Below are positions 3,287 to 56,047 of a DNA stretch of 64,000 bases, one piece after another (positions within the stretch are counted from its first letter, which is position 1; the number at the start of each line of letters is the position of its first letter). A program made the translations under genes and the position numbers. The stretch is taken from positions 682,001 to 746,000 of the forward strand of contig NZ_RWBG01000001.1 of assembly GCF_003944795.1 (NCBI RefSeq), in the 5' to 3' direction. This stretch comes from Mangrovimonas spongiae. GTDB taxonomy: Bacteria > Bacteroidota > Bacteroidia > Flavobacteriales > Flavobacteriaceae. The notes under the pieces were generated by a model, which saw nothing but the letters and a program-made list of their open reading frames with translations, made no database searches and was not told the DNA's origin.

Positions 3287-5679
3287 GCTTTTATAACCTG
3301 CATTAAATCATCGTAATTATAATATGCTTTAGAGCCGTTTTTTGAAGTGTTTTTTAAGGTGTTTTTATACAATATACCAACTTTTATAGCTTTAAGTCCT
3401 GTAACACCTTGTAGATCTTCTAGTTCTACTATTTGAACGTTTTTATCTAACATGTTTTTATGCTGAAGAAACTTTACATAGCGTAAATATTCTTCTTCAT
3501 CTTCTTTTTGAGAGTAAACAATAGAAAGTTTTCCGGGCTCGGTAATACGTTGATTGGTGTTTTTTACAAAAGCTTTGTCAACACGCTTTTTTACCACTTC
3601 GTATCTGGCATTATACGTACCATCAACATCAAATTTCTTTTCGTCCATTCTAAACCTAATAGACATTGGTTGATTAAAAACTAAAATTAAAGAAGCTACA
3701 TTTAGTGGTACCAAGAAATCTTCTTTTTTGTTGTAAAATTCGTTTTCCATTTCGCACATAACCTGCATTTGCCACAAACGCAAATTATAAAGATAAATAT
3801 CGCTAAAACTATCTTCTCTTGTTATAGATTCACCAATATACATGTTGTGCTCTACACCATCGGTTTTAAAGCGCTCAAAGAAATGTGGGTACATTTGTTG
3901 GGCATCTTTTTGGCGTTTGTCTAGAAGCCTTGACATGGAGCGGTTAATAACTTTAACGGTATCATCAAACTGTTTTCTATGGTGATAAAATACCTTTAAA
4001 TCTGTATCTATTTTTGATTTGTAATTATAAATAGCATTAGATAAAGAAGTATCATTTTCAAGAAGTAAACCTAATAACGGATAAACATCATGTTTTAAAA
4101 ACTGACCAATTTGATGCTCGCTGTCAACTTTAAAGTTGTTGTTTAAAAGTTCAAGATATTCTTCAGTTTGAAATAATACCTGCTCGTAAACAGGCATACT
4201 GTTAAACTTGTAAGCTTTTTTAAGTAGCGAAACCGTTTCTTTTAATTGCTTTTTTAAATCTTGTTGTGTGGCTTGATTTCTGGCGTTAGAAGATCCTTTA
4301 ATATCGATCTGTCCAAATAAAGGATATACATTTCTAAAGGCAATCTTTTCAAACGTGGTATTTTTATTTTGATAAATATTATTATTTATAAAATCTATGG
4401 CAGCTTTTCTAAAACGCCAATGTACACTGGGGTGAATAGAGGTGCATTCTTGTTGTATAACAGCATCAACCAAATGTTCGTGAGCATTTTTTGAGCGTTC
4501 AACGGCGGCAACAATATAAGGCATAACTTCATTAAGTTTATTGGCGTTTATACTGTTAAGAGCTCTTGGGGTATATGAGACTAACTCTAAAATCCCCATG
4601 AGGCCATTTTCATTAGCAATTGGTGCAAAAATAGCACTTTTAATACCTTGTTCGTGTAAGGCTTTAATGTAGGAAATTTTACCTCTAGATCGGTGATATT
4701 GTAAATCAACATCAGAGATAGCAAAAAGCTTTCTGTCTTTTAGTAATTTTTCATAGCTATTATTACATAGTGCATCGAGACAATGCTCTTTTTCAAAGTC
4801 GTTAATAATATAACTGTGAATATCTTCACCAAAAAACCTTTCAAAAGAATCTTCTTTTTCATCGTATAAGGAGAAGCCTACATTAATGTCTTTAATTTTA
4901 TAAAATGCCCTGAAAACGTCTTCAAAATCTGAAATAAAACTCGCGTCTTTTGGGTTTTCAATTTTGATAAGGCTAGATTTAATGTTTGAAATAGATTGGT
5001 CGTCTGTCATATCAAACATGTTTGATATGACAAATCCCTTCATAATATAGCTATGCGGAGGGAACTTTTCTTTCCAAAGGTCTATATTGTCAAAATTATC
5101 AAGCAGTAAGCTAATGTCGTCTTCAGATAAATCAGGGGCTTTGTCTGTTTTTATGATCTCTGTAAAGTCGGCGTTATAAGTTATTTTATAATACCTAATT
5201 ACGCCATTTTTGTCTGGGATTTTGTAATAGAAAGGTCTTTTAAAATTAAGGTCGAAATGGTAATGATATTTTAAAATCGCCGCGCATCCAACAATATAAA
5301 ACTCTTCATTTGGCATGTTGGTAATGGTAGGCGTAAAGTTATCTCCAGCATCTTTTATAATATCTTTAAAGCGTTGCGAAGACCTAAATAAAACATCGCA
5401 AAATGGTAGTCCTGCGGTTTTAATTTCATTTTGAGTTAACAGGTCGCTAAACGAATCCTGAAGGATTTCATTAATATCTTCAGAAAACGTTTTTATTAAT
5501 TTGGTGTCTGTAAATCCTTCTCTAAGTTTAGGGTTCTTTTCAGCAATTTTCAATACAGCCTTTGCGCGTTGCGAACTCAAGGTATTTTCGCTTGATGCAA
5601 GGCGCTCGTATTGGTCCAGGAGTTTACCAAAACCAATTTTTAAAAATAAAGGCGATTCAAAATCTGTGTTTAAAGACAT
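3283..5679 (-). CDS. GAF-domain protein, cytoplasmic, function unknown
   Basis: 798 residues, no signal peptide and no membrane segment. A central GAF-like region (about 250-395) can be recognised from FSLYDEKEDSF through IKSAIFAPIANENGLMGILEL, the usual end of a GAF fold. The N-terminal 240 and C-terminal 400 residues match nothing I know; the C-terminal part is helical and charged and ends in a basic tail. GAF domains bind small ligands such as cyclic nucleotides, but no output domain (kinase, cyclase, HTH) is visible. A -7 box TAATTTTG lies four bases before the ATG, which suggests a nearly leaderless mRNA. The C-terminus overlaps the convergent HD-PycTM gene at a shared TTAA. Confidence 0.75.
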   Translation of the reverse strand: MSLNTDFESPLFLKIGFGKLLDQYERLASSENTLSSQRAKAVLKIAEKNPKLREGFTDTKLIKTFSEDINEILQDSFSDLLTQNEIKTAGLPFCDVLFRSSQRFKDIIKDAGDNFTPTITNMPNEEFYIVGCAAILKYHYHFDLNFKRPFYYKIPDKNGVIRYYKITYNADFTEIIKTDKAPDLSEDDISLLLDNFDNIDLWKEKFPPHSYIMKGFVISNMFDMTDDQSISNIKSSLIKIENPKDASFISDFEDVFRAFYKIKDINVGFSLYDEKEDSFERFFGEDIHSYIINDFEKEHCLDALCNNSYEKLLKDRKLFAISDVDLQYHRSRGKISYIKALHEQGIKSAIFAPIANENGLMGILELVSYTPRALNSINANKLNEVMPYIVAAVERSKNAHEHLVDAVIQQECTSIHPSVHWRFRKAAIDFINNNIYQNKNTTFEKIAFRNVYPLFGQIDIKGSSNARNQATQQDLKKQLKETVSLLKKAYKFNSMPVYEQVLFQTEEYLELLNNNFKVDSEHQIGQFLKHDVYPLLGLLLENDTSLSNAIYNYKSKIDTDLKVFYHHRKQFDDTVKVINRSMSRLLDKRQKDAQQMYPHFFERFKTDGVEHNMYIGESITREDSFSDIYLYNLRLWQMQVMCEMENEFYNKKEDFLVPLNVASLILVFNQPMSIRFRMDEKKFDVDGTYNARYEVVKKRVDKAFVKNTNQRITEPGKLSIVYSQKEDEEEYLRYVKFLQHKNMLDKNVQIVELEDLQGVTGLKAIKVGILYKNTLKNTSKNGSKAYYNYDDLMQVIKA

Positions 5680-44986: not shown

Positions 44987-46069
44987 ATGACCGAACAAGA
45001 TTTTATTCCCAAACCATATAAAAATTCAGTTGAAAACGGCACTGTAACTTGGGAATCGCCAAGCAACATTGCTTTAATAAAATACTGGGGAAAACGCGAT
45101 CTGCAAATTCCAGAGAATCCTTCTATAAGCTTTACATTAAGTGAATGCAAAACCATAACCAAACTAACATATACAAAGAAAAACGACACTAAAGATTTCT
45201 CATTTGATGTGTTTTTAGATGGTGATAAAAAAGATGATTTCAAACCTAAAATTGAAACGTTTTTTAAGCGAATAGAAGTTTACGTACCATTTTTAAAAGA
45301 CTATCATTTCACCATTGAAACAAAAAACACCTTTCCGCATAGTTCTGGTATTGCATCATCGGCTTCAGGGATGAGCGCTTTGGCGTTGTGTTTAATGCGT
45401 ATTGAAAGACTGTTTAATAGCGAAATGTCAAATACGTTTTTTAATCAAAAAACATCGTTTTTGGCGCGTTTGGGTTCTGGTTCTGCTTGTAGAAGTATAG
45501 AAGGCAATTTAATTGTTTGGGGAGCAACAAAAAGTATAGAAAATAGCAGCGATTTGTTTGGTATAAAATATCCGTACAAAGTCCACGACAATTTTAAAAA
45601 CTATCAAGATACCATCTTGTTAATTGATAAAGGTGAAAAGCAGGTGAGTAGTACTGTTGGCCATCAATTAATGCATGGCCATCCGTTTGCCAAAGAACGT
45701 TTTGCACAGGCGCACGATAATATGGAAACGTTGAAGCCTATACTAGAAACAGGCGATTTAAATGCGTTTATTAATCTTATGGAAAGCGAAGCATTAACCT
45801 TGCACGCCATGATGATGACTAGTAATCCGTATTTCATTTTAATGAAACCAAACACCTTGGAAGTCATTAACCGTATTTGGAAATTTAGAACAGAGACAGG
45901 ACTTCATATTGGTTTTACGTTGGATGCTGGTGCGAATGTACATATTTTATATCCACAGTCAGAAAAAGCACAAATTCTTGAATTTATTGAAAACGAATTG
46001 GTTGCGTATTGTAAAAATGGTGAATATATTTGTGACCAAATTGGTTTGGGAGCAAACCAAATAGAATAA
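44987..46069 (+). CDS. mvaD: Diphosphomevalonate decarboxylase
   Basis: 360 residues. The signature NIALIKYWGKRD is close to the N-terminus, followed by the GHMP loop PHSSGIASSASGMSALAL, the LGSGSACRSIEG motif and the late TLDAGANVHIL with the catalytic Asp region. It converts mevalonate-5-diphosphate to isopentenyl diphosphate with ATP. It lies 9 bp after the DUF1697 gene and before the GHMP kinase, and shows that the organism uses the mevalonate route, as Flavobacteriia do. Confidence 0.94.
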   Translation: MTEQDFIPKPYKNSVENGTVTWESPSNIALIKYWGKRDLQIPENPSISFTLSECKTITKLTYTKKNDTKDFSFDVFLDGDKKDDFKPKIETFFKRIEVYVPFLKDYHFTIETKNTFPHSSGIASSASGMSALALCLMRIERLFNSEMSNTFFNQKTSFLARLGSGSACRSIEGNLIVWGATKSIENSSDLFGIKYPYKVHDNFKNYQDTILLIDKGEKQVSSTVGHQLMHGHPFAKERFAQAHDNMETLKPILETGDLNAFINLMESEALTLHAMMMTSNPYFILMKPNTLEVINRIWKFRTETGLHIGFTLDAGANVHILYPQSEKAQILEFIENELVAYCKNGEYICDQIGLGANQIE

Positions 46070-46106
46070 ATAATCGTATATTTACATAGTAGATTGCTAT
46101 TTAATT

Positions 46107-47036
46107 ATGAAAGGACCACTTTTTTACTCTAAAATCCTACTTTTTGGTGAATATGGAATTATCAAAGATTCCAAAGGATTGTCTATTCCGTATAATTTTT
46201 ATAACGGCGCTTTAAAAGTCACCAACAAAGATACCGAAGAAGCCAAAGCGTCTAACAGTGCATTAAGCCGTTTTGCCGATTATTTAGAGCAAATAGACAC
46301 TAACTTGGTTACTTTTGATATAGAAACTTTAACTAAAGATATCGCTGAAGGAATGTACTTCGACTCATCTATTCCGCAAGGTTATGGCGTAGGGAGTAGT
46401 GGTGCATTAGTTGCTGCGATTTACGATAAATATGCTAACGATAAAATAACTGTTCTTGAGAATTTAACACGAGAAAAATTATTACAATTAAAAGCTATTT
46501 TCTCAGAAATGGAATCCTTTTTTCATGGGAAATCATCAGGACTAGATCCATTGAATAGTTATTTGAGTTTGCCAATCCTTATTAATTCTAAAGATAATAT
46601 TGAAGCCACGGGTATTCCATCTCAAAAGGTAGATGGGAAAGGCGCTGTGTTTTTATTGGATAGTGGTGTTGTTGGAGAAACCGCACCAATGGTAAGTATT
46701 TTTATGGAAAATATGAAACAAGAAGGTTTCCGTAACATGCTTAAAGACCAGTTTATAAAACATACAGATGCTTGTGTGGAAGATTTCTTAAAAGGCGATG
46801 TTAAGTCGTTATTCAAAAATACTAAACAATTATCTAAAGTCGTATTGAGTCACTTTAAGCCTATGATTCCAAAGCAGTTTCACGAACTGTGGAAGAAAGG
46901 GTTGGAATCCAACGATTATTATCTGAAACTTTGTGGTTCTGGCGGTGGCGGCTATATCTTAGGATTTACAGAAGATATCAACAAAGCCCAAAAAGCCTTA
47001 AATGGTTATAAACTGGAAGTGGTTTATAATTTTTAA
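46107..47036 (+). CDS. GHMP kinase, probable mevalonate kinase
   Basis: 309 residues. GHMP motif 1 is SKILLFGEYGI, motif 2 is GYGVGSSGALVAA and motif 3 is LCGSGGGGYILGF; SGLDPLNSYLS with the catalytic Asp is typical of mevalonate kinases. It would make mevalonate-5-phosphate. Phosphomevalonate kinase is the main alternative, because both have the same fold and no other one lies here. It sits 37 bp after mvaD. Confidence 0.85.
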   Translation: MKGPLFYSKILLFGEYGIIKDSKGLSIPYNFYNGALKVTNKDTEEAKASNSALSRFADYLEQIDTNLVTFDIETLTKDIAEGMYFDSSIPQGYGVGSSGALVAAIYDKYANDKITVLENLTREKLLQLKAIFSEMESFFHGKSSGLDPLNSYLSLPILINSKDNIEATGIPSQKVDGKGAVFLLDSGVVGETAPMVSIFMENMKQEGFRNMLKDQFIKHTDACVEDFLKGDVKSLFKNTKQLSKVVLSHFKPMIPKQFHELWKKGLESNDYYLKLCGSGGGGYILGFTEDINKAQKALNGYKLEVVYNF

Positions 47037-47046
47037 CACACATTTC

Positions 47047-47072
47047 TGTCATTCTGAACTTGTTTCAGAATC
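47047..47072. repeat. REP-like palindromic element, copy 2
   Basis: TGTCATTCTGAACTTGTTTCAGAATC, stem ATTCTGAA / TTCAGAAT around CTTGT. It differs from the copy at 30353 only by C-G to T-A in the stem and ends 13 bases before the ATG at 47085. Confidence 0.8.
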
Positions 47073-47084
47073 CCATTAAAATCT

Positions 47085-47999
47085 ATGCTAACCAGAAAAC
47101 AAAAACATATTCTACTTAAGTTTTTTAGTATGTTTTCTGTTATTCGTGGTTATAATATTTTGGTTGTTGCTGTGGCTCAGTATTTAGCCTCTATTTACAT
47201 TTTAGCACACTATAAACCCGTTCGTGAAGTAGTTTTTGATGTAAACTTACTTATGCTGGTTTTGGCGTCTTCGGCAACTATTGCAGGCGGTTATATTATC
47301 AATAATTTTTACGATTCCGAAAAAGATTTAATCAACAGGCCAAGAAAAACTATGTTAGACCGTTTGGTCAGTCAAAATACGAAACTGTCTTTTTATTTTG
47401 TGTTGAATTTTTTAGCGGTTGTTTTGGCTAGTTATGTGTCGTTTAGAGCCGTTGTGTTTTTCTCTATTTATATTTTTGCCATCTGGTTTTACTCACACAA
47501 ACTCAAAAAAATGCCTTTTATAGGCAATTTAACATCGGCCATTTTAACCATTACGCCGTTTTTTATCATTTTTGTGTATTACAAGAATTTCGAGCACGTT
47601 ATTTTTGTGCACGCTATGTTTTTGTTTTTAATAATATCCATGCGAGAGCTTACCAAAGACTTAGAAAACCTTCAAGGCGATTTGGCGCAGAATTATCAAA
47701 CCATTCCTGTGGTTTATGGCGAAAAAGTATCAAAAATAATGCTTACTGTTTTAGGCGTGTTGACACTGCTTCCCGCATTGTTGCTTATTTTTCAATATCA
47801 GGTAGGAAAAATGAGCTATTATTTTTACCTAAGTATTGTGCTTTTGGTTGTTTTTGTAGTAATGCTTTGGCGGTCAAACTCAAAGTTACAATACCTCATT
47901 CTACATAACATTTTAAGGTTCATTATTGTACTAGGGGTGATTAGTATTCCGTTGATTGATATAGGTTTGGTGCTTAATAAAATCACTTTTATTCGATAA
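47085..47999 (+). CDS. UbiA-family prenyltransferase
   Basis: 304 residues with about eight or nine membrane segments. The two Asp-rich motifs that bind prenyl diphosphate through magnesium are present: NNFYDSEKDLINRP (NxxxDxxxD) and RELTKDLENLQGD (DxxxD). Similar flavobacterial proteins are often named geranylgeranylglycerol-phosphate geranylgeranyltransferase, but menaquinone or other acceptors are possible. Placed after two mevalonate-pathway genes, it consumes their product. A REP-like element lies between it and the kinase. Confidence 0.87.
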   Translation: MLTRKQKHILLKFFSMFSVIRGYNILVVAVAQYLASIYILAHYKPVREVVFDVNLLMLVLASSATIAGGYIINNFYDSEKDLINRPRKTMLDRLVSQNTKLSFYFVLNFLAVVLASYVSFRAVVFFSIYIFAIWFYSHKLKKMPFIGNLTSAILTITPFFIIFVYYKNFEHVIFVHAMFLFLIISMRELTKDLENLQGDLAQNYQTIPVVYGEKVSKIMLTVLGVLTLLPALLLIFQYQVGKMSYYFYLSIVLLVVFVVMLWRSNSKLQYLILHNILRFIIVLGVISIPLIDIGLVLNKITFIR

Positions 48000-48040: not shown

Positions 48041-48919
48041 ATGAGCAGAAAGCAAGGAACAGGAGGAAAGAAAAGACCATCAGGGAGAGGGCAACGACAC
48101 AATAGCGGAAATAGGTCTAGCAGAGGCGGAAATAATTCCGGAGAGAAGAGCTTTGCACGTGGAAATGCTCCGATGAAAAAGAAAAACACACCGAGTAAAA
48201 GCAAGTCGTCTTCAGGAGACATTCGCTTAAACAAATATATTGCCAATTCAGGAATATGTTCGCGTCGTGAAGCCGATGAACACATTGCTATAGGTTTGGT
48301 AACTGTTAACGGAAAAGTAGTAACTGAAATGGGTTACAAGGTACAACTGGAAGACGATGTTCGTTTTGATGGACGCCGCATTAATCCAGAACCAAAAACA
48401 TACGTTTTATTAAACAAACCAAAAGGGTTTGCCACAACAACAAGCAATGCTAAGGATAGAACTGTAATGGATTTAGTGGCTAATGCCACCAATGCTAGAA
48501 TAAAACCTATTGGCCGTTTAGGACGAAATTCAACTGGTTTGTTATTGTTTACCAATGACGATACCGTTGTAAAAAAGTTTACTAACTCTAAAAATGGCGT
48601 ACCGCGCTTGTTTCAAATAGAATTAGATAAAAATCTTAAATTTGAAGACCTCAAGCAGGTAGAAGAAGGTCTGAAGATTGATGGTAAAGAGGTTGTTGTT
48701 GAGGAAATTAGCTACATTGAAGGTCAAAGTAAAAACCTAATTGGGCTAAAAATAAAGAACACCGGAAATTCTATAATCCGTAATATTTTTGATCATTTAG
48801 GCTACAACATCATAAAAGTAGACTGCGTGGCGATTGCGCATCTTACCAAGAAAGATTTGCCAAGAGGCTACTGGAAGCATTTAACCAAACAAGAGGTTAA
48901 TACGTTGAAGATGTTGTAA
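48041..48919 (+). CDS. RsuA/RluB-family pseudouridine synthase homologue lacking the catalytic Asp
   Basis: 292 residues. A basic, low-complexity N-terminal tail (1-60, rich in Arg, Gly, Ser, Lys), an S4 RNA-binding domain (about 63-115, IRLNKYIANSGICSRREADEHI) and the synthase domain (about 120-290). The family's catalytic motif is GRLDxxSxGLLLxTND; here it reads GRLGRNSTGLLLFTND, with Gly (codon GGA) in place of the catalytic Asp. The second conserved motif, usually NRQIRRM, is also altered to NSIIRNI. The protein may still bind ribosomal RNA but should be tested for activity. It lies between ubiA and the polyamine leader. Confidence 0.85.
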   Translation: MSRKQGTGGKKRPSGRGQRHNSGNRSSRGGNNSGEKSFARGNAPMKKKNTPSKSKSSSGDIRLNKYIANSGICSRREADEHIAIGLVTVNGKVVTEMGYKVQLEDDVRFDGRRINPEPKTYVLLNKPKGFATTTSNAKDRTVMDLVANATNARIKPIGRLGRNSTGLLLFTNDDTVVKKFTNSKNGVPRLFQIELDKNLKFEDLKQVEEGLKIDGKEVVVEEISYIEGQSKNLIGLKIKNTGNSIIRNIFDHLGYNIIKVDCVAIAHLTKKDLPRGYWKHLTKQEVNTLKML

Positions 48920-48990
48920 TTGTGTGTTTGAATTTTTTTTCAAAAAAAGTATTGTAATTCAAATTTTTGTATTTCATTTGCATCAGTTTT

Positions 48991-49099
48991 TTAGCTGAAC
49001 AAAGTGAACACTGTTTATACGTTTGGGCTTTTGGGAATTAGGAAGTCATATCCAAAAGCAACCCTTAAGAAGGGAAACCGAAATTTAAAGCTAACTTCC
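48991..49099 (+). ncRNA. Candidate structured RNA (stem plus pseudoknot) upstream of the arginine decarboxylase
   Basis: Pairings found by eye: an outer stem TTAGCT (48991-48996) / AGCTAA (49089-49094); inside it, GCTTTTGG (49027-49034) / CCAAAAGC (49052-49059), then hairpin CCCTT-AAG-AAGGG (49062-49074). The loop of the second stem carries GGAAGT (49041-49046), which is complementary to ACTTCC (49094-49099) directly after the outer stem, a pseudoknot. The density of pairing is unusual for an intergenic region. It could be a riboswitch or other cis-regulatory RNA of the polyamine operon, or a small RNA; I do not recognise the family. Confidence 0.5.
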
Positions 49100-49241
49100 G
49101 TAAATCACTACTCAAGCCAACATTTGTATGGCTTTATTCCTACAACCCAACGCCAACTGTTGGTTTGATAATCATTGTTTTTTATTAACATAATGTTGCG
49201 TTAACACGCATTTTTCATCTTTAAACTTTAATAAAAAAACA
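49100..49241 (+). promoter_or_regulatory. Remainder of polyamine leader: three hairpins, last one terminator-like
   Basis: Hairpins AAGCCA / TGGCTT (49114-49119, 49129-49134), AACCCAAC / GTTGGTT (49144-49165, one bulge) and TGCGT-TAAC-ACGCA (49197-49210) followed by five Ts (49211-49215). The last could act as an attenuator 27 bases before the ATG at 49242. Upstream (48920-48990) there is only AT-rich sequence with a weak TTTGAA / TTCAAA hairpin after the previous gene. No ORF is evident. Confidence 0.4.
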
Positions 49242-50642
49242 ATGAATACTAAATATATTGATTTAATCAATCAAACTTTTTATTTTCCACAAGACGAGTT
49301 TGCACTCGATGGACAGTTTTTAAAATTTCACGATATCGATCTCAAAGCATTGGTCGAGGAATATGGTGCGCCGTTAAAATTTACTTATCTGCCACAAATA
49401 TCCAATAACATCAATCGCGCAAAAGGCTGGTTTGCAGCTGCCATAAAAAAGCATAATTACCCAGCAACGTACAACTATTGTTATTGTACCAAGAGTTCAC
49501 ACTTTAAGCACGTGTTAAACGAAGCACTAAAGAATGATATTCATATTGAAACGTCTTCAGCTTTTGATATTGACATAGTGGAAAATCTAAAACAACAAGG
49601 TAAAATTACCGATGATACGTATGTGATTTGCAATGGTTTCAAACGTGCACAATATATAACCAATATTGCACGATTAATTAATGAAGGCCATAAAAATTGT
49701 ATCCCAATTATCGATAATTACGAAGAAATCGATTTATTGTCTGAAGTCCTCGACAGTAAATTTAAGGTCGGGATCAGAATAGCTTCAGAAGAAGAACCAA
49801 AATTTGAATTTTATACCTCAAGATTAGGAATTGGTTACAAAAACATTGTGCCATTTTACAAAAATCAAATACAGAATAATGATAAAGTAGAATTAAAAAT
49901 GCTTCACTTTTTCATCAACACAGGTATTCGTGATAATGCTTACTATTGGAACGAATTACTTAAGTGCTTAAAAGTGTACATTAGCTTAAAGAAAATTTGC
50001 CCAACTTTGGATAGCTTGAATATTGGTGGCGGATTTCCTATTAAAAATTCATTGGCATTCGATTTTGATTACGAGTATATGGTTGATGAAATCATTAATC
50101 AAATAAAAATAGCTTGTGACGAAGCCGAAGTTGACGTGCCAAACATTTTTACCGAGTTTGGAAGCTTTACCGTTGGGGAAAGTGGTGGCGCTATTTACGA
50201 AGTGTTGTATCAAAAACAACAAAACGATCGTGAAAAATGGAATATGATTAATTCATCATTCATTACAACCTTACCAGATACTTGGGCGATAAACAAACGT
50301 TTTATCATGTTGCCCATTAACCGTTGGAACGATAGTTATGAACGTGTGCTTTTGGGTGGATTGACATGTGATAGCGACGATTACTATAACAGCGAGCAGC
50401 ACATGAATGCCATTTATTTGCCTAAATACAACAAAGACAAGCCACTTTATATAGGCTTTTTCAATATTGGAGCTTACCAAGAAACCATTGGTGGTTTTGG
50501 CGGATTACAACATTGTTTAATTCCTTCTCCAAAACACATTTTAATAGATAAAGATGCCAATGGCAATTTAACAACAACATTATTTAGTGAACAACAAAAA
50601 AGTGAAGACTTACTTAAAATTCTAGGTTACGATGCAAACTAA
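49242..50642 (+). CDS. speA: Biosynthetic arginine decarboxylase (PLP, alanine-racemase fold)
   Basis: 466 residues, shorter than the 630-residue E. coli SpeA, as usual in Bacteroidota. The barrel starts with PLP-binding Lys in YCYCTKSSHFKHV; later LNIGGGFP (phosphate-binding glycines) and FTEFGSFTVGESGG follow, and the C-terminal domain has GGLTCDSDD with the active-site Cys-Asp. It makes agmatine from arginine. The downstream agmatinase gene overlaps its end by 11 bp, and the long structured leader upstream suggests post-transcriptional control. Confidence 0.9.
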   Translation: MNTKYIDLINQTFYFPQDEFALDGQFLKFHDIDLKALVEEYGAPLKFTYLPQISNNINRAKGWFAAAIKKHNYPATYNYCYCTKSSHFKHVLNEALKNDIHIETSSAFDIDIVENLKQQGKITDDTYVICNGFKRAQYITNIARLINEGHKNCIPIIDNYEEIDLLSEVLDSKFKVGIRIASEEEPKFEFYTSRLGIGYKNIVPFYKNQIQNNDKVELKMLHFFINTGIRDNAYYWNELLKCLKVYISLKKICPTLDSLNIGGGFPIKNSLAFDFDYEYMVDEIINQIKIACDEAEVDVPNIFTEFGSFTVGESGGAIYEVLYQKQQNDREKWNMINSSFITTLPDTWAINKRFIMLPINRWNDSYERVLLGGLTCDSDDYYNSEQHMNAIYLPKYNKDKPLYIGFFNIGAYQETIGGFGGLQHCLIPSPKHILIDKDANGNLTTTLFSEQQKSEDLLKILGYDAN

Positions 50643-51570
50643 AACTTACGCAGGAATCCCTGAAAAATATGCAAAATTAGACAGTTCTAAAATTGTATTA
50701 ATTCCAGTACCTTACGATGGTACGAGTACTTGGCAAAAAGGTGCCGATAAAGGTCCAGAAGCCTTTTTGCACGCTTCAGAAAACATGGAGTTGTATGATA
50801 TTGAAACACAAACCGAAGTTTATAAACAAGGAGTTTTTTTGGCCAATGCCGTAACCGAAAATAGTTCGCCGGAAACTATGGTAAATGCCGTGCATAAAGC
50901 CACTAAAAACTATATTAAGCGTAATAAATTTGTAACCATTTTTGGAGGCGAACATTCCATTTCCATTGGTACTATTCGCGCGTTTAATGAATGTTTTGAT
51001 AATTTAACAGTGTTACATATCGATGCGCATGCCGATTTACGAAAAGAATACGAAGGCTCTGCTTGCAATCACGCTTGTGCCGTTTACGAAGCAAGCCAGA
51101 CTACAAATTTAATTCAGGTGGGAATCCGCTCAATGGACATAATAGAAAAAACCGTTATGGACCACGACAAAACCTATTTTGCTCACGAACTGGCACAAGA
51201 CGATGCTTGGATGGATTCGGCATTAGACCAAATGACAGATAATGTGTTTATCACCTTTGACTTGGATGCCTTAGATCCGTCAATTTTACCAAGCACAGGA
51301 ACACCAGAACCTGGTGGTTTGTTTTGGTATGAAACCCTTGAGTTTTTAAAAATGGTATTTGAGGAAAAAAACGTGGTCGGATTCGATATTGTAGAACTTT
51401 GCCCTAATGAAAACGAAAAATCTTCAGATTTTCTAGCGGCTAAATTATACTATAAAATGCTAACATATAAGTTTATGGAGGAAGATATTGAAAACACTTA
51501 TGAAAGTAATTTTGAAAACAACAATAACGAAATAAATAAATTTTCTAAATTTAATGACGATGAGTACTAA
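50632..51570 (+). CDS. speB: Agmatinase (ureohydrolase)
   Basis: 312 residues. The arginase-family manganese ligands are all visible: GGEHSISIG, HIDAHADLR, and TFDLDALDPSILPSTGTPEPGG. It hydrolyses agmatine to putrescine and urea. A short Asn/Glu-rich tail (about 290-312) extends beyond the family core. It overlaps the upstream gene by 11 bp and the downstream DHS gene by 17 bp, so the three must be coupled. Confidence 0.93.
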   Translation: MQTKTYAGIPEKYAKLDSSKIVLIPVPYDGTSTWQKGADKGPEAFLHASENMELYDIETQTEVYKQGVFLANAVTENSSPETMVNAVHKATKNYIKRNKFVTIFGGEHSISIGTIRAFNECFDNLTVLHIDAHADLRKEYEGSACNHACAVYEASQTTNLIQVGIRSMDIIEKTVMDHDKTYFAHELAQDDAWMDSALDQMTDNVFITFDLDALDPSILPSTGTPEPGGLFWYETLEFLKMVFEEKNVVGFDIVELCPNENEKSSDFLAAKLYYKMLTYKFMEEDIENTYESNFENNNNEINKFSKFNDDEY

Positions 51571-52534
51571 AGGGCACATATCAAAATTCATAGAAAAATA
51601 CTATTTGCATTTTAATGCTGCTGCATTGGTAGATGCTGCTAAAGCTTACGAAGATCAATTAAATAGTGGTTCTAAGATGCTAGTATCATTAGCTGGAGCA
51701 ATGAGTACGGCCGAGTTGGGTAAGATATTTGCCGAAATGATTCGTCAAGACAAAGTACATATTATTTCTTGTACGGGAGCTAATTTGGAAGAAGATATTA
51801 TGAATTTGGTAGCACACTCACATTACGAGCGTGTACCCAACTATCGCGATTTAACCCCAAAACAAGAATGGGATTTACTTGAACGTGGCTTAAATCGTGT
51901 AACCGATACGTGCATTCCAGAGGAAGAAGCCTTTAGACGTTTGCAAGAGCACATTTTTAAAATATGGAAAGATGCCGAAGATGCAGGAGAACGCTATTTT
52001 CCGCACGAGTTTATGTACAAAATGCTGTTAAGTGGAGTGCTAGAAGATTATTACGAAATAGATTTAAAAGACTCGTGGATGTATGCCGCTGCCGAAAAGA
52101 ATTTACCAATTGTGGTTCCCGGTTGGGAAGATAGTACAATGGGAAACATTTTTGCAAGTTACGTGTTAAAAGGTGAGTTAAAAGCCAGTACCATGAAATC
52201 TGGAATTGAGTACATGACCTTTTTAGCCGATTGGTATACCGATAATTCCAAAAACGGTATTGGGTTTTTCCAAATTGGAGGTGGCATTGCTGGAGATTTT
52301 CCTATCTGTGTTGTGCCAATGTTATACCAAGATATGGAACGAACCGATACACCATTTTGGAGCTATTTCTGTCAAATTAGCGATTCTACCACAAGTTATG
52401 GATCGTATTCTGGAGCGGTGCCAAACGAAAAAATCACTTGGGGAAAACTAGATATTGATACACCTAAATTTATTATAGAAAGTGATGCTACCATAGTAGC
52501 GCCACTAATATTCGCCTATTTATTAGATATGTAA
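51554..52534 (+). CDS. Deoxyhypusine synthase homologue
   Basis: 326 residues; ATGs at 51554 and 51560 are both possible. The family core is clear: ALVSLAGAMSTAELGK, HIISCTGANLEEDI, and SYGSYSGAVPNEKITWGK with K298, which corresponds to the Lys that carries the aminobutyl group in eukaryotic and archaeal enzymes. Bacteria have no eIF5A, the normal substrate, so the bacterial enzyme must use another acceptor, possibly an amine (homospermidine or similar). Being in one operon with arginine decarboxylase and agmatinase, it probably takes part in polyamine synthesis rather than protein modification. Confidence 0.88.
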   Translation: MTMSTKGHISKFIEKYYLHFNAAALVDAAKAYEDQLNSGSKMLVSLAGAMSTAELGKIFAEMIRQDKVHIISCTGANLEEDIMNLVAHSHYERVPNYRDLTPKQEWDLLERGLNRVTDTCIPEEEAFRRLQEHIFKIWKDAEDAGERYFPHEFMYKMLLSGVLEDYYEIDLKDSWMYAAAEKNLPIVVPGWEDSTMGNIFASYVLKGELKASTMKSGIEYMTFLADWYTDNSKNGIGFFQIGGGIAGDFPICVVPMLYQDMERTDTPFWSYFCQISDSTTSYGSYSGAVPNEKITWGKLDIDTPKFIIESDATIVAPLIFAYLLDM

Positions 52535-52536
52535 TT

Positions 52537-52848
52537 ATGAAGGACAATTTAAAACGCGTCATTGTTGACTTTAAAAAACTAACACCAGAGATTTTGGCTT
52601 TATTGGTTGAAAAATATCCTGATGGATATGATGACGACCAAATAATCAAGTTTAAAAATGCCAAAAGTGAATTGGTAGAAGCTGTTGAAGTAACCACAGA
52701 AGATACCAAGTATTTGGTGAAAGTAAGTACCAAGTTAGCCGTAACTATGGAAAATTATGATGAGGAAGACTATGATGATTTTGAAGATGATGATCCAGAA
52801 GCAGTACAGCCACCAGAGGTAGAAGAAGCGGATAACGACGACGATTAA
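52537..52848 (+). CDS. Small acidic protein of unknown function
   Basis: 103 residues, two bases after the DHS stop, so cotranscribed with the polyamine genes. The first 75 residues are a mixed alpha/beta segment (RVIVDFKKLTPEILALLVEKYPDG); the C-terminal 30 are almost entirely Asp and Glu (DEEDYDDFEDDDPE). No family recognised. An acidic tail could bind cations such as polyamines or mimic nucleic acid, but this is a guess. A terminator follows. Confidence 0.8.
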   Translation: MKDNLKRVIVDFKKLTPEILALLVEKYPDGYDDDQIIKFKNAKSELVEAVEVTTEDTKYLVKVSTKLAVTMENYDEEDYDDFEDDDPEAVQPPEVEEADNDDD

Positions 52849-55971: not shown

Positions 55972-56047
55972 TGGTGGTGCCTCCAGGAATCGAACCAGGG
56001 ACACAAGGATTTTCAGTCCTTTGCTCTACCAACTGAGCTAAGGCACC
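55972..56047 (-). tRNA. tRNA-Phe (anticodon GAA), CCA encoded
   Basis: The minus strand folds as a normal cloverleaf: 7-bp acceptor GGTGCCT / AGGCACC, D-arm AGCTCAGTTGGTAGAGCA, anticodon loop CTGAAAA with GAA in the 5-bp stem AGGAC... , T-arm with GGTTCGATTCC, discriminator A and an encoded CCA (55974-55972). No other tRNA or rRNA is next to it. Confidence 0.95.

Follow-up and report, generated by a model that had tools for sequence, protein, structure and literature searches.

Control of polyamine synthesis by a leader open reading frame (ORF) has been described in Salmonella, and upstream ORFs are known in yeast, plants and mammals (passages of PMC6386406). In the Salmonella speF leader a putative RNA element was recognized first and a short ORF, orf34, was shown later; Rho termination, access to the ribosome-binding site and decay depend jointly on the translation of orf34, on the orf34 stop codon and on RNA folding (same passages of PMC6386406). 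The SpeFL product is a termination-arrest peptide that senses L-ornithine, with ornithine leading to an RF1 block, and TnaC arrests at UGA with RF2 bound yet inactive and arginine as the penultimate residue; when Trp is low, release uncovers a Rho site (sections of PMC8429421). In the leader of mgtA, a Mg2+-related gene, a structured RNA is combined with the short proline-rich mgtL ORF (passages of PMC6386406). Here we describe the leader of a speA-speB-deoxyhypusine-synthase (DHS) operon from a flavobacterium, for which a bipartite organization appears probable, namely a pseudoknotted RNA gating a translation start and, behind it, a leader peptide of the termination-arrest type.

The window is a stretch of 64,000 nucleotides of the Mangrovimonas spongiae genome (contig NZ_RWBG01000001.1, positions 682,001 to 746,000), and its own coordinates are used throughout. 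The genes around the leader are as follows.

End at 48919: pseudouridine-synthase-family gene, the upstream neighbour of the leader
49242..50642, + strand: SpeA-like arginine decarboxylase gene (PF02784)
50632..51570, + strand: agmatinase gene (SpeB; TIGR01230 over cut-off)
51554..52534, + strand: deoxyhypusine-synthase-family gene (PF01916 over cut-off; every NCBIfam model under cut-off)
52537..52848, + strand: small acidic protein gene, with homologues in three other genomes that have their own copy of the element described below

The last four genes follow each other on one strand in this order. The top NCBIfam match of 49242..50642 is arginine decarboxylase, yet it stays under the cut-off (168 vs 369 bits), and at a guess the product of 51554..52534 belongs to a homospermidine/spermidine branch. 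Directly 3' of the deoxyhypusine-synthase gene, 52537-52848 encodes 103 aa with a D/E-rich tail, for which Pfam returned nothing above cut-off. Upstream on the operon's strand, a UbiA-type prenyltransferase (PF01040) lies within 44987-47999, and the other ORFs of that segment resemble what we take to be mevalonate-pathway enzymes. We compared the window with 80 SpeA relatives taken from named contigs, 81 leaders in all; the nearest relative, from Mangrovimonas sp. ST2L15, has 90% identity.

The original prediction had placed a conserved pseudoknotted RNA in this leader. The parts of the element in the window are listed here.

48985..49107, + strand: conserved structured RNA element, matched by the covariance models R1 (131.3 bits) and R2 (128.2 bits)
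48991..48996, + strand: P1 5' strand TTAGCT, partner 49089-49094, the helix with the weakest support
49022..49026, + strand: P2 5' strand TTTGG, partner 49078-49082
49027..49035, + strand: P3 5' strand GCTTTTGGG, partner 49051-49059
49041..49045, + strand: pseudoknot 5' strand GGAAG, inside the P3 loop, partner 49095-49099
49051..49059, + strand: P3 3' strand TCCAAAAGC, partner 49027-49035
49061..49065, + strand: P4 5' strand ACCCT, with a basal A.A in the window
49071..49075, + strand: P4 3' strand AGGGA, partner 49061..49065
49078..49082, + strand: P2 3' strand CCGAA, partner 49022-49026
49089..49094, + strand: P1 3' strand AGCTAA, partner 48991-48996
49095..49099, + strand: pseudoknot 3' strand CTTCC, partner 49041-49045

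The outer stem, the inner stem, the CCCT/AGGG hairpin, the loop complementarity and the last hairpin of the original prediction were all found where it had put them. P2, a helix it did not include, closes a three-way junction, and A49094 is the base common to P1 and the GGAAGT/ACTTCC pairing; its two middle hairpins, AGCCA..TGGCT and CCAAC..GTTGG, fall within the half that codes for protein. In the consensus, P1 (TTAGCT/AGCTAA) is followed by a junction and by P2 (TTCGG/CCGAA), which encloses P3 (GCTTTTG/CAAAAGC) and P4, and the pseudoknot joins GGAAG, from the loop of P3, to CTTCC directly 3' of P1. Folded alone, the leader reaches -71.2 kcal/mol (z -1.83), a value equalled by 5 of 100 shuffles; such a single-leader energy would not by itself prove much about the structure, and the proof is comparative.

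Searching with an iterated nucleotide profile recovered the element from 71 of the 81 SpeA leaders including the window, and R1 lists 68 of the 81 at E <=0.05, the last two being weak. R1 was built from 62 leaders (alignment A1), and R2 from 76 divergent copies (alignment A2), that is, 76 of 77 copies chosen at <88% identity, with L062 left out. In the 62-sequence alignment, 96.7% of cells are paired and 55 cells show two-sided change, compared with 8.4 +- 2.6 after shuffling, and on each of five measures 0 of 500 shuffles matched the observed value. Among the 76 divergent copies there are 188 double-change cells, spread over all five helices, vs 54.8 +- 6.7 in shuffles (0/500 as high), double-change counts being a test of a structure derived from the same sequences. 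Unaided, RNAalifold chose another long-range pairing instead of P1 and no pseudoknot, and the structure named above was used in its place. Single leaders illustrate the exchange of pairs: L144 has AGGAG/CTCCT in place of GGAAG/CTTCC, and in L181 (the site of L222) the entire P3 stem is replaced with GGAAGT and ACTTCC retained.

In a home-made test resembling R-scape (a tree, substitutions re-placed per branch, and an APC-corrected G test on 120 sequences), five of the eight best-ranked pairs overall were proposed ones. When the count was limited to the 31 proposed pairs, E values were 0.016 for P2, 0.0065, 0.006 and 0.03 for P3, and 0.029 for the outer pseudoknot pair, and those of P4 stayed above 0.05; over all pairs none was significant, the best E being about 1.6. 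For P1 in a fixed register this test gave nothing. With the register left free, P1 slightly beat swapped partners (2/200 as good) across the 41 leaders whose 5' strand diverges. Covariation beyond phylogeny, which the original prediction had made a test of its claim, was significant for P2, P3 and the pseudoknot over the proposed pairs, and was not significant over all pairs or for P1. Orthologous leaders keep the helices, so that its claim of a conserved RNA stands. Compensatory change among relatives, the general mark of a structured cis-regulatory RNA, is present, weakly so in P1, and the comparison supports a regulatory RNA that is both conserved and pseudoknotted ahead of the polyamine genes.

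The family of this RNA had not been recognized in the original prediction, and Rfam 15 likewise gave the leader no match at gathering score: the only match in the window was a tRNA at 55975-56047, and the loci of 20 relatives gave tRNAs only. Permissive Rfam scans of the window and relatives yielded only matches far below gathering score. The family of the SpeFL/speF leader, which we take to be RF00517, was unmatched in the Rfam scans of the window and relatives.

Within and beyond this RNA lies a feature that was absent from the original prediction.

49004..49168, + strand: leader ORF of 54 aa from GTG to TGA, VNTVYTFGLLGIRKSYPKATLKKGNRNLKLTSVNHYSSQHLYGFIPTTQRQLLV
49100..49168, + strand: protein-selected C-terminal stretch of that ORF, codons 33-54 with the TGA stop (omega ~0.45; TGA in 104/122)

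The ORF begins in the P1-P2 junction and traverses P2, P3, P4 and the pseudoknot. Its relatives are NTG-started ORFs of 50-58 codons (55 in 77 of 122) with the stop at a near-constant place. This set of 122 came from 129 distinct hits, from which the second copies L165, L166, L161 and L163 were removed together with L160 (no start codon), L127 (at a contig end) and L155, whose start lies beyond the searched span and which has an open 57-aa leader ending ILI-TAA. Since the set was chosen by an (A/G/T)TG rule, its unchanged start positions and gapless first 33 columns carry no weight, and the fair test of the start lies in the nucleotide alignments A1 and A2.

In A2 the start codon has T in 76/76 and G in 75/76 copies, with T 43, A 30, G 2 and one gap at its first base, and in the 62 rows of A1 the T and G are invariant, with T 51, A 7 and G 4 at the first base. 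On the trees the first base changes 8 (A1) and 7 (A2) times, never to C, and the second and third bases change 0 and 0 times (A1) and 0 and 1 times (A2). The remaining unpaired columns of A2 have a mean of 15.1 changes and a minimum of 3; in A1, which holds closer relatives, 15 further unpaired columns change <=2 times. From the start codon to the end of the pseudoknot, indels occur in 0 of 62 rows of A1 and 2 of 76 rows of A2 (L160 and L008, the latter gap being a mere placement of the start base), and just upstream of the start codon they occur in 16/62 and 27/76 rows, respectively. There is thus one clear frame-breaking indel among 76 divergent copies.

The two halves of the ORF are under different selection. 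For codons 2-32 omega is about 1.05 and changes are even over the codon positions (371/362/372), while for codons 33-55 omega is about 0.45 and changes gather at the third position (432/356/780), a contrast indicating that the RNA constrains the first half, whose frame remains open, and the peptide the second. The pairs are no by-product of the peptide, since 92.7% pairing in the 122 ORFs compares with 57.6-67.7% after synonymous shuffles; structure beyond the peptide, a mark of cis-regulatory RNA, is therefore present. A short upstream ORF with a kept start and frame, and selection concentrated in the C-terminal part that would occupy the exit tunnel (omega 0.45 vs 1.05), are likewise what leaders of the TnaC/SpeFL type display. 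Programmed frameshifting by the pseudoknot was also considered and rejected, the remaining two frames being without coding signal.

The peptide ends in the pattern hydrophobic-x-(I/V)-stop. Among the 122 ORFs the last residue is I in 69, V in 47, L in 5 and F in 1 (I/V in 116), the antepenultimate residue is I in 82 and F in 22, and the penultimate residue is Q in 56 and R in 36 (R or Q in 92); observed forms are ..FVPTTxxQIQV, ..IFRI, ..QIMI and ..PTTEKQIIV. The stop is TGA in 104, TAA in 11 and TAG in 7. In the 76 loci covering both stops, TGA ends the leader in 64 and speA in 3, and it ends 23 of 398 ORFs of >=200 aa in the same loci. The tree shows 15 changes of the leader stop. They fit a preference for TGA kept up across repeated change, and they mean that the TGA counts are not independent events. 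Comparison of the relatives shows this second module as an ORF running past the RNA into a protein-selected stretch that ends hydrophobic-x-(Ile/Val)-stop, mostly UGA, just as it shows the first as an RNA folding into P1-P4 and a P3-loop pseudoknot with the leader start codon in the P1-P2 junction. Selection on the C-terminal protein sequence together with a preferred TGA is a mark of a leader-peptide system, which would act through ribosome arrest.

The same data bear on three other readings. The ORF might encode a small functional protein cotranscribed with speA, with the RNA as an unrelated element controlling translation of that ORF; a length of 50-58 aa and a protein-selected C-terminal half would suit it, but we regard it as improbable because the extreme C-terminus and the identity of the stop are conserved and the N-terminal half is free, and none of the three peptides tested matched a Pfam or NCBIfam family. 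Classical attenuation by charged tRNA through runs of regulatory codons could draw on some conserved Arg codons in the leader. The consensus, however, has no run of Arg codons, the conserved AGG belongs to the pseudoknot strand, and just 36 of 122 ORFs have a penultimate Arg (56 have Gln), so that this scheme is extremely unlikely.

The third reading is a strict riboswitch: as an aptamer, the pseudoknot would bind arginine, agmatine or a polyamine, and the ORF would be a mere passenger reporting whether the start region is open. This reading would account for the strong conservation of some unpaired junction positions, for the lack of protein selection in codons 2-32, and for copies (described below) that precede genes for acidic or exported proteins, including those of genus g20, which has no speA match, and the copy L160, which has no intact ORF. 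Against it, the start codon and frame are kept throughout the element, and a passenger ORF should not give an omega of 0.45 and a preferred TGA in its C-terminal half; we consider this reading unlikely. The original prediction, a ligand-binding aptamer plus attenuator, is supported as to a conserved, pseudoknotted regulatory RNA and incomplete in taking it as a free-standing aptamer, since a conserved ORF traverses the element, with a protein-selected C-terminal half and a preferred TGA.

Two further features flank these modules.

48973..48980, + strand: promoter-like box TTCATTTG, a Bacteroidetes TAnnTTTG with one mismatch
49197..49215, + strand: terminator-like hairpin TGCGT-TAAC-ACGCA-TTTTT, a candidate attenuator 26 bases before the ATG at 49242

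We take TAnnTTTG to be the consensus of the Bacteroidetes-type -7 box. TTTG stands at -24..-26 from the leader start codon in 60 of the 122 relatives and at -27 in the window, a position from which transcripts should begin near P1. The gap between the leader stop and speA measures 52-176 nt and its frame is not kept; terminator-like hairpins occur in 38 of 122 gaps, compared with 5-18 over ten shuffle rounds, and are absent by the rule used in 84, and the mean MFE z for gap folding is -1.38 (61 of the 122 gaps).

In the bipartite reading that we favour, the transcript would start at or just before P1, which would make folding and leader translation mutually exclusive: the fold would hide the 5' end and the leader start region until it is opened, and an entering ribosome would melt the fold. 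The pseudoknot would in this way gate initiation on the leader ORF, perhaps via ligand binding. The arrest, the ligand and the direction of control are parts that we infer. By analogy with TnaC, SpeFL and orf34, the nascent chain, once complete, may delay or arrest termination at its UGA codon, a release factor 2 stop, in a manner tuned by high or low levels of arginine or of a metabolite of the polyamine pathway, and the presence or absence of a ribosome at the stop would then decide between termination at the following hairpin (or by Rho) and continuation into speA. The sign of control could be induction by arginine as substrate or feedback by polyamines, each of which would fit.

The element is widespread in one family. 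R1 matches 189 of 397 Flavobacteriaceae genomes and R2 matches 194 of 397 in the family genome sample, adding five genomes to the R1 listing (G032, G067, G235, G272 and G280), whose leader peptides end LRI, LRI, IMI, IIV and IRI, four of them with TGA. Under stricter filters, with which weak matches are lost, R1 matched 1 of 395 genomes in the class sample, namely the window's own genome, and R2 matched 14 of 366 in the order sample, all 14 being Flavobacteriaceae; in the class and order samples, no genome outside Flavobacteriaceae had the element.

Not all copies precede speA. For 68 hits the downstream side was read (the 30 loci L099-L128 and 38 further hits): 62 precede speA, one is at a contig end (L127) and five precede other genes. 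In four of these (L165, L160, L166 and L161) the element stands before a gene for an exported protein of about 100 aa, and in L163 before a homologue of the small acidic protein 52537-52848. At L166 two copies lie back to back and divergent, 4834-4956 (-) before the exported-protein gene and 5181-5303 (+) before speA. At L160 (4553-4670, -), the RNA scores 62 bits, the start codon is missing at the conserved place, the frame is broken, and the exported-protein gene follows 3'. Homologues of the acidic protein with their own copy of the leader element occur in G377, G022 and G273. In G022 and G273, which belong to one genus (g20), the element precedes the acidic-protein gene, and a speA query that succeeded in 20 of 40 other genomes gave no match in either. 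Six of these seven non-speA copies, all except L160, keep an open frame; five of the six have no tail, and L165 ends VRI-TAG. The tail thus being mostly missing, the RNA and peptide modules need not act together.

A family of exported-looking acidic proteins of ~100-130 aa (..VYDGHEDYGYNF.., L191-L220) was seen in 64 of 299 family genomes, with at least 12 cases about 3-8 kb from a speA leader on the same contig. Its tested members have no Pfam match above cut-off, and it was not found in the window's own genome.

Leaders without the RNA were considered as well. The 29 family leaders without an R1 match comprise 13 of the 80 fetched and 16 from 27 genomes picked among those lacking R1. In seven of the 29, speA is preceded at a distance of 35-180 nt by an ORF with the ending hydrophobic-(R/Q)-(V/I)-stop, where shuffles lead one to expect 0.14, and one of the seven, L181, carries the RNA by R2. 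The strict tail pattern is missing from the other 22, of which L055, L057, L060, L066 and L073 end IMI, IIV or LIV. In four SpeA leaders from outside the family (L187-L190), no leader ORF with the tail pattern was found. In two leaders of genus g146 (L179 and L180) the RNA element was not found and a conserved leader ORF ends ..FANIRV-TGA; its ATG lies 4-5 bases past a TACATTTG box, which possibly makes the transcript almost leaderless.

Similar-ending leader ORFs without detected RNA raise the possibility that the leader peptide works alone, the RNA merely positioning or slowing ribosomes or protecting the 5' end and having no ligand of its own. C-terminal selection and TGA would be explained by this reading, as would the inferred transcript start at P1, but specific unpaired bases are conserved and the RNA is reused before other genes, mostly without an arrest-like tail; we judge it possible but rather unlikely. 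Returning to the bipartite leader, a bolder version of it may be put forward tentatively, as a possibility that we would not yet bet on: a serial two-sensor switch, in which a new pseudoknotted aptamer for a polyamine-pathway compound gates the start codon of an ORF whose nascent chain is a second, UGA-dependent sensor. In this version the RNA sensor would also serve by itself in front of acidic-protein and exported-protein genes, even in genus g20 with its undetected speA, forming a polyamine regulon of Flavobacteriaceae.

Within a single stretch of 165 nt, the first half carries an RNA fold and the second a peptide, two separable signals that can be told apart by codon statistics. The leader is a concrete candidate for polyamine or arginine sensing across a large bacterial family, and it carries a warning that conserved 'riboswitch candidates' may be translated.

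Several described systems share parts of this design. SAM-IV-type riboswitches have a P3-type hairpin loop that pairs just 3' of P1, and their core motifs differ from those of the element here; the likeness is in the loop-to-3'-flank pseudoknot, and the window and 20 relatives' loci gave no Rfam match at gathering score other than tRNAs. The mgtA leader, as those passages portray it, also has a short ORF alongside a structured RNA, but its gene is Mg2+ related and the mgtL peptide is proline-rich. With TnaC, as the cited sections describe it, the present leader shares UGA, which is preferred here, and a penultimate position occupied by R or Q in 92 of 122 ORFs; unlike TnaC (24 aa, Trp12 and Asp16 being conserved, with Pro24 at the C-terminus, by the same sections), its consensus has no C-terminal Pro. 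To our knowledge, no RNA pseudoknot is known in TnaC. The speF leader with orf34/SpeFL, upstream of ornithine decarboxylase, comes close as a polyamine-gene leader whose RNA element conceals a short ORF. SpeFL, within what the cited sections report, is a gammaproteobacterial peptide of 34 aa with consecutive Arg codons and inhibition of RF1, whereas the peptides here are mostly 54-58 aa and end at UGA; unlike in the speF leader, the pseudoknot overlaps the ORF start, and Rfam gives no match. In the titles and abstract openings screened from the open-access literature, a comparable system in Bacteroidota was not found. We propose that this leader may work like TnaC, SpeFL and orf34, a likeness in working that does not imply homology, and what we regard as new is the joining, within one stretch, of a probable leader peptide that works in the TnaC/SpeFL manner and a pseudoknotted RNA that is itself new.
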